A DNA stretch of 64,000 nt from Fluviicola chungangensis (GTDB taxonomy: Bacteria; Bacteroidota; Bacteroidia; Flavobacteriales_D; Crocinitomicaceae). Position numbers and translations under genes: made by a program. The stretch is from positions 602,808 through 666,807 of the forward strand of contig NZ_VLPL01000001.1 in the NCBI RefSeq assembly GCF_007558725.1, written 5' to 3'. Positions 22,733 through 54,826 of this stretch are shown in pieces; positions within the stretch are counted from its first letter, which is position 1; the number at the start of each line of letters is the position of its first letter. The notes below the pieces were generated by a model. It was given only the letters and a program-made list of their open reading frames with translations, made no database searches and had not been told where the DNA came from.

Positions 22733-23848
22733 ATGTCGGATTTCGTTGTTTCTGCCAGAAAATACAGACCCCAGACCTTTGATACGGTTGTTGGGCAGAA
22801 AGCAATTACCAACACGCTTAAAAATGCAATCAAGAACCAGCATTTGGCTCAAGCCTTCTTATTTTGCGGTTCACGCGGAGTTGGTAAAACAACTACTGCA
22901 CGTATTTTAGCGAAAACGATCAACTGTTTTAACAGAACAGAGGTTGTTGAAGCCTGTGATCAGTGCGAAAGCTGTAAATCTTTTAACGAAGGAGCTTCCT
23001 TAAATGTTTACGAATTGGATGCGGCATCGAACAACTCCGTAGATGATATCCGCGGGCTGATTGACCAAGTGCGCATTGCTCCGCAATTGGGAACCCACAA
23101 GGTGTATATCATTGACGAGGTCCACATGTTGTCAACGGCAGCTTTCAATGCGTTCTTAAAAACCTTGGAAGAACCGCCAGCACACGCAATTTTCATTTTA
23201 GCAACAACGGAAAAACACAAGATCCTGCCAACTATTTTGTCTCGTTGTCAGATTTTTGATTTCCAGCGAATAAAAGTCAAAGACATCGCAGACCATTTGG
23301 CGCATGTGGCTACACAGGAAGCTATTTCTGCAGATCCGGATGCATTGCACCTGATTGCTCAAAAAGCGGATGGTGCTTTGCGTGACGCCTTGTCTATTTT
23401 CGACCAGATTGTCAGCTTCTGCGGAACAACGATTACGCATAAAGCCGTACTGGAAAATCTGAATGTACTGGATCACGATTATTATTTCAAAGTTGTAGAA
23501 AACGCTTTGAATGAAGATATTCCCGCCTGTTTGTTGCTTTTTAATGATGTCATGGAAAAAGGATTTGACGGACATCATTTCTTAGTGGGACTTGCAGAAC
23601 ATTTCAGGAACCTATTGATCTGTAAAGATCCGCGCACGGCAAATTTGCTGGAAGTCGGTGAAACCACAGAGAAACTATTTGTGGAACAGGCGAAAAAAGT
23701 CGACGGCGCGTTTGCATTGCGTTGTTTAGGCGTACTCAGTAAAGCCGATGTGGATTACAAGTCCGCAAAGAATCAGCGACTGCTGGTCGAATTGACCCTG
23801 ATGCAAATCTGTTCGGTTAAATCTGAGCTCGAAAAAAAAAATCCTTAA
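22733..23848 (+). CDS. dnaX: DNA polymerase III subunit gamma/tau, zero-frame part (gamma-like)
   Basis: I take the ATG at 22733, giving 371 residues. This is the clamp-loader ATPase: Walker A GSRGVGKTT near residue 46, a four-cysteine zinc site (C at FNRTEVVEACDQCESCK), the DEVH Walker B near 120 and the SRC sensor-1 region. The collar domain follows. The frame stops after EKKNP, just past an A10 run at 23832-23841. The rest of tau continues in the -1 frame (next entry). Normal reading therefore yields a gamma-like protein, and slippage at the A-run would give tau. A sequencing indel in the homopolymer is the alternative. A -7 box lies 5 nt upstream. Confidence 0.92.
   Translation: MSDFVVSARKYRPQTFDTVVGQKAITNTLKNAIKNQHLAQAFLFCGSRGVGKTTTARILAKTINCFNRTEVVEACDQCESCKSFNEGASLNVYELDAASNNSVDDIRGLIDQVRIAPQLGTHKVYIIDEVHMLSTAAFNAFLKTLEEPPAHAIFILATTEKHKILPTILSRCQIFDFQRIKVKDIADHLAHVATQEAISADPDALHLIAQKADGALRDALSIFDQIVSFCGTTITHKAVLENLNVLDHDYYFKVVENALNEDIPACLLLFNDVMEKGFDGHHFLVGLAEHFRNLLICKDPRTANLLEVGETTEKLFVEQAKKVDGAFALRCLGVLSKADVDYKSAKNQRLLVELTLMQICSVKSELEKKNP
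23832..23841 (+). other. A10 slippery run, candidate frameshift or transcriptional slippage site in dnaX
   Basis: Ten consecutive A, read as GAA AAA AAA AAT in the zero frame. A -1 shift opens a frame with no stop that runs into the tau C-terminal domain. A stem TTTCGTC/GACGAAA (23871-23877 with 23898-23904) lies about 30 nt downstream, probably too far to be a classic frameshift stimulator. A-run slippage is known for dnaX in E. coli (ribosomal) and Thermus thermophilus (transcriptional). Confidence 0.65.
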
Positions 23849-24447
23849 CTGATCCGGTCCTCATTATTCCTTTCGTCGGACAAAGTCTGAGAAACGAGAC
23901 GAAACCGGTGAACAAACCTTCCGTAGCGCCCGAAAGAGCTGCTTTTTCTGTAAAACCTGAGGCCAAAGTCCTTTCTGCTCCTACCGGAAATCTGAATTCC
24001 AATAATTTATCGATCAATCATTTAATTGAGCAGCAAAAAGCAAAAGCACATGTTCCTCAAAGTGATTTACCTAAAAAAGAATTCCACAAGGATGATGTGG
24101 TCCGGCTTTGGAAAACCATGGCACATACCCAAAAACTGAACGGACAGGACCAGGTTTACCATGTTATGATCAAACGTGACCCCATACAGCTGGATGAAAC
24201 GACTTTCCAGTTTGAAGTGGACAATACTATTCAAATGACCCGACTGGAAGGTGCGATTGGGGAAGTAATGGCATACATCCGGAAGGAAATCCAAAATTAC
24301 GACCTGGTTATCCAGTTGGAAATGCTTAAAGATGCTCCTGAAGAAGTGAAGTATCTCAACGGTCCTGACCGATTTGAGAAATTAGCCAAGAAAAATTCAA
24401 ACCTTTTCGACCTGAAGAATCGTTTTAACTTAGACATCGATTATTAA
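23842..24447 (+). CDS. dnaX: dnaX tau extension, read in the -1 frame after the A10 run
   Basis: About 201 codons in the frame reached by a -1 shift. It is open from the A-run through SLTDPVLIIPFVG and a proline- and alanine-rich linker. From about 24050 it forms a compact domain with VVRLWKTMAHTQKLNGQDQVYHVM and DLKNRF close to the end. This matches the C-terminal part that Bacteroidota tau proteins carry. The apparent GTG start at 23908 is unlikely, because the frame is open and coding upstream. With slippage the full tau would be about 571 residues. The lipoprotein gene starts 4 nt after its stop. Confidence 0.8.
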   Translation, partial: SLTDPVLIIPFVGQSLRNETKPVNKPSVAPERAAFSVKPEAKVLSAPTGNLNSNNLSINHLIEQQKAKAHVPQSDLPKKEFHKDDVVRLWKTMAHTQKLNGQDQVYHVMIKRDPIQLDETTFQFEVDNTIQMTRLEGAIGEVMAYIRKEIQNYDLVIQLEMLKDAPEEVKYLNGPDRFEKLAKKNSNLFDLKNRFNLDIDY

Positions 24448-53704: not shown

Positions 53705-54826
53705 TTATTTCAAATCTTCAATAAAATCGAGTACTTTATCTGAAAAGGCCTCCCAGGAATTAGCTCTTTTATAATTCTGAATTGCTTCAAAATAAGATTC
53801 TTTCGAATTTCCCAGAAAATAGGTATTGATTGCATCCGAAATGGCCTGACCGGTAATCTCTTTCACGATCATTCCCGTCACCCCGTCTTCAATGGTTTCC
53901 TTCAGTCCTCCTACATCCGTTGCGATAATCGGAAGATCAAAATGATAGGAAATGGCTGTGATCCCACTTTGAGTAGCACTTCTGTAAGGCAACACACATA
54001 CTTCTGCCGCAGAGAAAAAATGGGTTACCTCCGCATCTGAAATATAATTATTGAACACATGAACACGCCCCGAAATAGCCGGATCCTGCAACTGTTTCCG
54101 ATACTTGTCAAAACTGCCGTATACTTCTCCTGCAATAATCAATTCAATGGAAGGATCAACCGTTTTAAATGCGTCTATCAGTAAGTCCAGTCCTTTGTAT
54201 TCACGGATAAATCCAAAAAAAAGGGCGTATTTCTTCGCAGGATCCAGTTTTAATTCCCGGCATGCTTCTTCCTTTGTTTTTTTTTCACCGAAATGATCGT
54301 AAAGCGGGTGATCGATACGGATGTATTTTGCATGGGGTTTAGCCGAAAGCAAATCGTTCAAGACACTATCCGACATGACTACAAATCCATCAATCTGTTT
54401 GAGGTAAAACCGGTTAAATGCCGTGTCAAAGAAACGTTTTTCGTGCGGGATCAGGTTGTCCAGGATGCAGATAATTTTTGTCTCCTTTTTCAACTTCTTT
54501 GCAACCATACCAAGTGACGGAGCAAAAAATGTCATCCAATACCTCAGGATCAACACATCGGGTCCGAATTTCCGGATTAGCCTGGCCGTTTTCAGGTAAC
54601 TAACGGGATTAATCGTGTCCAGCACCGGGATCGCCGGAATTCTATCGACTTGGTCTTTCTCCGTTACATATTGCGTTTCACCGGGAAACAGGAAATTGGG
54701 GTACTGCCTTTTAAAGGTAAAGGCCTTCACGGAATGCTCTTTCTCAAAAACCCTGTAAATGCTTGCATTAAATTGTGCAATACCTCCTCTGAAGGGATAA
54801 AAGGTTGAAAGAAAAGCTATTTTCAT
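53705..54826 (-). CDS. Glycosyltransferase, GT4 family (group 1)
   Basis: A 373-residue retaining glycosyltransferase with a GT-B fold. The start AFLSTFYPFRGGIAQFNASIYRVF has the GGI loop of the donor-facing N-terminal domain. The C-terminal domain carries FGFIREYKGLDLLIDAFK and AEVCVLPYRSATQSGITAISYHFDLPIIATDVGGLKE, the E-x7-E region in which the first acidic residue appears replaced (SATQSGITAIS). It adds a sugar from a nucleotide sugar to a surface polysaccharide or glycolipid. Other glycan genes (gmhB and a GT2) lie upstream on the same strand. Confidence 0.88.
   Translation of the reverse strand: MKIAFLSTFYPFRGGIAQFNASIYRVFEKEHSVKAFTFKRQYPNFLFPGETQYVTEKDQVDRIPAIPVLDTINPVSYLKTARLIRKFGPDVLILRYWMTFFAPSLGMVAKKLKKETKIICILDNLIPHEKRFFDTAFNRFYLKQIDGFVVMSDSVLNDLLSAKPHAKYIRIDHPLYDHFGEKKTKEEACRELKLDPAKKYALFFGFIREYKGLDLLIDAFKTVDPSIELIIAGEVYGSFDKYRKQLQDPAISGRVHVFNNYISDAEVTHFFSAAEVCVLPYRSATQSGITAISYHFDLPIIATDVGGLKETIEDGVTGMIVKEITGQAISDAINTYFLGNSKESYFEAIQNYKRANSWEAFSDKVLDFIEDLK

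Follow-up and report, generated by a model that had tools for sequence, protein, structure and literature searches.

The dnaX gene is the classic case of a single gene that delivers two products by slipping. In the window, that is, the whole stretch of 64,000 nucleotides of Fluviicola chungangensis that was analysed, the frame of dnaX is split at a run of ten A, which raises the question how tau could be made from this gene and whether the RNA polymerase or the ribosome does the slipping. In the literature covered, as far as the cited passages go, proof of slippage by the polymerase at dnaX exists for Thermus, and for a handful of two-ORF genes such slippage has been proposed. A gene caller ending such genes at gamma would miss tau.

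Anatomy of the split gene

The locus comprises the following features.

22733–23848, plus strand: zero-frame ORF of dnaX, gamma form, 371 aa, end EKKNP
23825–23827, plus strand: GAG codon two before the run codon, preferred to GAA according to family codon counts
23832–23841, plus strand: A10, candidate slippage site
23839–24447, plus strand: -1 frame, tau-specific part, 202 codons plus TAA (24445–24447)
23846–23848, plus strand: TAA, zero-frame (gamma) stop
23850–23852, plus strand: TGA, third-frame stop, met with 9 or 12 A in the mRNA
23871–23904, plus strand: stem drawn by the first-pass annotation, no excess stability in window or family
24061–24444, plus strand: conserved C-terminal tau domain, from the alignment and a structure model (mean pLDDT 74.2)

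The zero frame starts at ATG 22733 and reads GAA AAA AAA AAT CCT TAA (E K K N P stop) across the run, just as the first-pass annotation had described for a dnaX that is split by an A10 and closes after EKKNP. Its claims that the -1 frame is free of stops for about 200 codons into the C-terminal domain of tau and that tau would have about 571 residues are also borne out: the frame stays open for 202 codons up to the TAA at 24445, the end of the PRK14971 profile is matched, and counted from ATG 22733 tau comes to 369 + 202 = 571 residues. Reading the three frames in the window, the run length modulo three yields one tau and two gamma-like ends.

Profile matches place the ATPase, the lid and domain III of DnaX in the gamma part. 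The zero-frame ORF matches TIGR02397 (dnaX_nterm) over its cut-off with an E-value of 1.5e-132, and PRK14971 (DnaX gamma/tau) with an E-value of 5e-202 and 673 bits, just missing the whole-protein cut-off of 685. The downstream ORF, searched from its first GTG at 23908, matches PRK14971 (E 7.3e-17) at positions 458–614 of 614, that is, at the end of the profile; a Pfam search with the downstream ORF matched no family.

The A10 is the sole run of at least ten A or T in the window. The second longest is a T9 (54277–54285) inside a glycosyltransferase-like ORF (53705–54826, minus strand), where it reads as A9 and the ORF is unsplit.

Coding content of the slipped frame

By building an HMM from the C-termini of 110 unsplit tau proteins we could show that the slipped frame codes for tau in every split locus: the slipped-frame ORFs of 109 of 109 split loci (100 in the -1 frame and nine in the +1 frame) match with E-values below 1e-5, the ORF of the window with 2e-30. 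On the other two frames of the same 109 stretches no match below an E-value of 0.01 was found.

The model of the tau-specific domain is of moderate quality (pLDDT 74.2, pTM 0.53) and shows helices at residues 10–26 and 30–38, a strand, a helix at 56–77, a further strand and two low-confidence helices. Sequence comparison of this domain with solved structures gave nothing significant, the best hit (E 0.088) being unrelated and DnaA following with 0.3 and 0.34. A Foldseek search of the model against the PDB likewise returned no E-value below 0.001. Its first three ranks were DnaA domain I with SirA (0.027), a domain of PscP (0.05), which we reject as unrelated, and DciA with DnaB (0.078). DnaA domain I and the helicase loader DciA, both non-significant structural neighbours, are replication proteins. 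Domain V of E. coli tau may have a related fold. That the tau-specific domain contacts the polymerase or the helicase would be a guess.

Conservation in genus and family

All 13 genomes of the genus in which the linker could be examined, the window's genome included, have an A10 at the same site and tau in the -1 frame; the fourteenth genome (G005) stops short of the linker and was left out of this count, its locus (L020) being unclassified, as the sequence ends before the linker and a second gene fragment lies on another contig. As the whole genome has 26 overlapping A10 places (both strands, 4.27 Mb) and all congeneric genomes examined keep the run together with the split, the A10 in dnaX is above chance. 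The comparison with related genomes that the first-pass annotation had proposed thus turned out in its favour.

In the family, 56 distinct coded loci were examined, and 43 of them have an A9 or a longer run. Tau lies in the -1 frame in 39 of these 43 loci and in the zero frame in two; two are undecided, of which at least one (L069) is interrupted by the end of a contig. The zero-frame stop is found at the identical codon in 41 of the 43 (TAA in 31, TGA in 10). In both unbroken genes (genomes G099 and G117) the run is an A11, and tau is read without a break through KKKWLTDPV and KKKSLTDIV, which nearly match KKKSLTDPV, the junction predicted for the slippage product of the window. Natural near relatives that are one A apart are on offer, such as the A10 and A11 members of one genus (G095 and G099 type). 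One locus (L035, from the draft genome G016) contains an in-frame TAA within gamma near residue 260; it was classified at the linker only, where it has an ordinary A10 and tau in -1.

Comparison across the phylum

For the wider comparison 74 of 158 sampled genomes of the class were taken, about one per family with extra genomes having short frames, and 20 of 53 listed genomes from outside the class. As this sampling favoured extra genomes with short frames, the share of split genes in the set is a biased estimate. After removal of four duplicates from 232 classified loci, 228 distinct Bacteroidota loci from genomes and named records were left, five of them having no decidable state.

A run of A9–A12 is present at the linker in 198 of the 228 loci. 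The longest run is 10 in 155 loci, 11 in 22, 9 in 19, 12 in two and shorter than 9 in 30. When the run is present, tau lies in frame 0 in 99 loci, in -1 in 87 and in +1 in nine, with three undecided; the 30 run-less loci divide into 15 unbroken genes, 13 splits in -1, all from the window's family, and two undecided cases. Unbroken relatives devoid of the run, which according to the first-pass annotation would speak against slippage, are not the rule: 99 of the 114 unbroken relatives examined keep it, and the two in the family have one A extra. In 108 full dnaX genes, 96 of the A or T runs of at least nine are found at the linker and four elsewhere. Outside the class, an A9 or A10 stands at the linker in eight of the 20 genomes examined (L271–L273, L275, L278 and L284–L286), four of them with a -1 split.

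The run is ancient, and the frame next to it switches: more than one frame state occurs within 13 of 66 coded families. For example, Flavobacterium strain YO12 has an A9 and tau in +1, and its near relatives have an A10 and tau in -1. A quick tree of 123 gamma proteins requires at least 20 changes of the frame state, even with the count restricted to rows with an A-run, and at least eight changes of run presence. The tree is limited to loci having a complete gamma part, 123 of the 228, and excludes L020, L032 and L035; as 46 of its 120 inner branches are open, the 20 frame changes are to be taken as a rough minimum.

Run-less splits in the family

The 13 run-less -1 splits (L042–L045, L048, L159–L164, L257 and L258) belong to the family genera g5, g9, g11, g20 and g23. 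The heptamer A_AAA_AAG is found in the single locus of g9 and in two of the four of g5, and the frames overlap as TAATG in genome G035 and as ATGA in G083. In g11, GTATCTTAAGT or GCATCTTAAGT stands at the stop in five of six genomes; the conserved sequence at the stop, TATCTTAAG, is also present in g20 and two g5 genomes, and most of these g11, g20 and g5 loci have no evident slippery heptamer. Together with genome G113, which has an A10, the run-less genera form one supported tree group, within which the places of G113 and g23 are open. A single loss of the run in this group would be the simplest reading of the tree, and the run-less splits look like a replacement of the mechanism.

Closure of the other frames

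A -1 ribosomal slip enters only one other frame, whereas all three arise when the polymerase gains or loses A on the run; a protein with the third-frame end could not result from a -1 ribosomal shift. Both non-tau frames meet a stop within 15 codons from the run in 192 of 195 A-run loci, whatever the default frame, as compared to 311 of 780 at control points 90–270 nt further on, a shift control that ignores relatedness. The exceptions are L046, L217 and L110, and closure holds without exception in 59 of 61 coded families. Where tau is in -1, a stop in the third frame, which is out of reach for a -1 shift, comes within 15 codons in 86 of 87 loci (control fraction 0.68). At a fixed linker point of the 15 unbroken run-less loci, about half have the same closure. 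Within the family, the third frame closes past the gamma stop at a median of 10 nt in the 13 run-less splits versus 4 nt in 39 loci, a difference with p = 7e-5 when kinship is ignored.

Splits in both directions are, in the relevant passages of Antonov et al. (PMC3711429), a mark of transcriptional realignment. Together with the closure of the third frame, the occurrence of -1 and +1 splits fits polymerase slippage of the Thermus dnaX type better than a -1 ribosomal shift. A run that is kept while the frame switches all ways and the other frames are closed separates polymerase slippage from ribosome slippage by sequence alone.

Proposed mechanism and alternatives

We consider it probable that the two-ORF dnaX is expressed by programmed slippage of the RNA polymerase at the A10. 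The polymerase would slip on the run and produce transcripts with a varying number of A. Transcripts with 10 (or 7 or 13) A would give gamma, ending EKKNP; 11 (or 8 or 14) A would give tau of about 571 aa, with a peptide running into SLTDPVLIIPFVGQ; and 9 or 12 A would lead to the TGA at 23850 and another gamma-like product ending ILN. One gene would thereby supply both clamp-loader subunits. Slippage on the run making tau and plain reading making gamma, as the first-pass annotation suggested, appears to be the best reading of the evidence and is supported. The anatomy, the conserved run, the conserved tau domain in the slipped frame and the stops in both other frames are established. We infer that slippage takes place in the organism and is mainly transcriptional, and likewise its frequency and a function of both products in the replisome. 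Several observations go against polymerase slippage: the A-run loci have 87 -1 splits and nine +1 splits, an imbalance that would also follow from a ribosomal share in the -1 direction; 13 run-less loci of the family are split all the same; and the GAG preference and the Shine–Dalgarno-like 4-mers upstream of the run as well as the small excess of structure outside the family (see below) belong here too.

The strongest alternative, which we regard as unlikely on the whole, is that tau is made from a uniform mRNA by -1 ribosomal frameshifting in the run (A_AAA_AAA), perhaps aided by the upstream GAG. The window and 87 of 96 split A-run loci have the -1 direction, dnaX of E. coli is a precedent with its shift at A_AAA_AAG (in the passages cited from PMC3711429 and PMC5009743), and the same heptamer turns up in the run-less genus g9 and in half of the g5 genomes. 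On the contrary, nine A-run loci require a +1 shift, the closure of the third frame, which this shift does not enter, is just as tight as that of the gamma frame, the family has no conserved downstream structure (see below), and Bacteroidia ribosomes are reported not to recognise Shine–Dalgarno sequences, according to the part of PMC9976891 concerned. Low prfB frameshifting in Flavobacterium johnsoniae is cited in a passage of PMC12421855.

Possible stimulators were considered in this context. For the 198 A-run loci, 55-nt stretches before the run, after it and at a control point were folded and compared with shuffles (43 loci of the family and 154 or 155 others per stretch). In the window the stretch adjoining the run has a z of 0.15. 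The stem at 23871–23904 can be drawn as the first-pass annotation did, but the 55-nt stretch that holds it (z -0.77) is not more stable than its shuffles. In the 43 family loci there is no excess of downstream structure (mean z -0.09, control 0.04); in 154 loci outside the family the stretch directly after the run shows a small excess (mean z -0.56, control point -0.19). A stem–loop stimulator as the main element of the window's gene is rejected, as neither window nor family has excess stability, and the stem is probably without a role.

At the position two codons before the run codon, Glu is encoded by GAG in 37 of the 41 family loci that have it there (GAA in four; 43 A-run loci in all) and in 29 of 39 loci outside the family, as compared to 717 GAG versus 1644 GAA for Glu codons overall in the same genes and to 12 GAG in 42 family loci at the Glu codon 14 before the run. 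Counted by genus, 18 of the 19 family genera with the run have Glu there, 14 with GAG only, three with GAA only and one with both. This preference looks like selection on nucleotides, which could act on a stimulator of the ribosome, on pausing of the polymerase or on another feature. Shine–Dalgarno-like 4-mers are also moderately in excess upstream (84 seen versus 57.9 expected, of 198 loci, by a synonymous shuffle that ignores relatedness), and both observations together hint at a ribosomal element. The GAG preference and the large majority of -1 over +1 splits leave room for a ribosomal share in tau synthesis.

That polymerase and ribosome contribute about equally seems improbable to us: such a joint process shares all points in favour of either, and A-runs are slippery for both machines, as stated in the passages used of PMC3711429, but nothing demands the two together. 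We give hardly any weight to a homopolymer error of sequencing or assembly, or to a dead gene. An A10 is error-prone in some chemistries and many relatives are drafts or MAGs, but all 13 congeneric genomes examined share the run and the split, 41 of 43 A-run loci of the family close the zero frame at one and the same codon, and the slipped frame holds a conserved tau in 109 of 109 split loci, all of which speaks against it. Just as negligible is a separate downstream protein made by reinitiation, for which the stop–start overlaps TAATG and ATGA of the run-less G035 and G083 could be quoted, as the first listed ATG, GTG or TTG in the -1 frame is the GTG at 23908, 60 nt past the gamma stop, and the peptide LTDPV after the run is identical in family members having gamma fused to it. 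On this evidence error, dead gene and reinitiation are rejected for the window's gene.

Comparison with known systems

Programmed polymerase slippage at an A10 has been proposed before. Antonov et al. 2013 (PMC3711429) list 17 two-ORF dnaX genes from 12 genera, nine with an A10 and all in the -1 direction, and propose transcriptional realignment. The dnaX of the window is one more two-ORF A10 gene of this kind and itself no different: gamma is in the zero frame, the tau domain in the -1 frame, the junction is an A10, and the frame transition is kept in relatives. The nine A10 species may well include Bacteroidota. What our comparison adds are the +1 cases, the unbroken relatives that keep the run and the closure of both other frames; in the literature covered, the phylum-wide run, the +1 cases, the both-frame closure and a count of the switches were not found.

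The precedents that the first-pass annotation invoked, E. coli and Thermus, hold for slippage at A-runs; the roles of the products, on the other hand, are reversed there, since tau is the plain product and the slip leads to gamma. In Thermus thermophilus transcriptional slippage at an A9 is proven (in the sections cited of PMC1088944 and PMC5009743), and gamma and tau likewise come from one gene. A linker run of at least nine A and early stops in both non-tau frames are common to both genes. Tau is in the zero frame in Thermus, whereas in the window it is in -1 and plain reading gives gamma; slippage is proven for Thermus and predicted for the window's gene. The E. coli gene employs a -1 ribosomal frameshift at A_AAA_AAG, according to the cited parts of PMC3711429 and PMC5009743. 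It shares with the window's gene the production of gamma and tau from one gene at A-rich Lys codons, and purines (GAG) upstream. On the contrary, the window has no A_AAA_AAG, as the run goes on as AAT, though the A10 contains A_AAA_AAA, and it has no supported downstream stem–loop (z 0.15). The plain product is tau in E. coli and gamma here, and the relatives of the window's gene need both shift directions.

For a wider reading of these data we see about even chances. The Bacteroidota would have inherited one polymerase-slippage site in dnaX and kept it while the downstream frame drifts among the three frames by small indels. The frame would be free to drift because slippage would be efficient enough for either product as the default. 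The polymerase would do the job of the E. coli ribosome since Bacteroidia ribosomes ignore Shine–Dalgarno sequences, and one subclade of the family would have lost the run and make both products otherwise.

The named relatives whose dnaX is nearest to that of the window are Flavobacteriales, including a Crocinitomicaceae MAG (L082) with 79% identity. Two further records, titled as MAGs of Chryseobacterium gleum (L079, 81% identical) and Chitinophaga pinensis (L083, 75% identical), are closer to the window's dnaX than the true Flavobacteriaceae or Chitinophaga records compared. The former and genome G014, which belongs to the window's family, have the same stretch; the titles of both records look misassigned.
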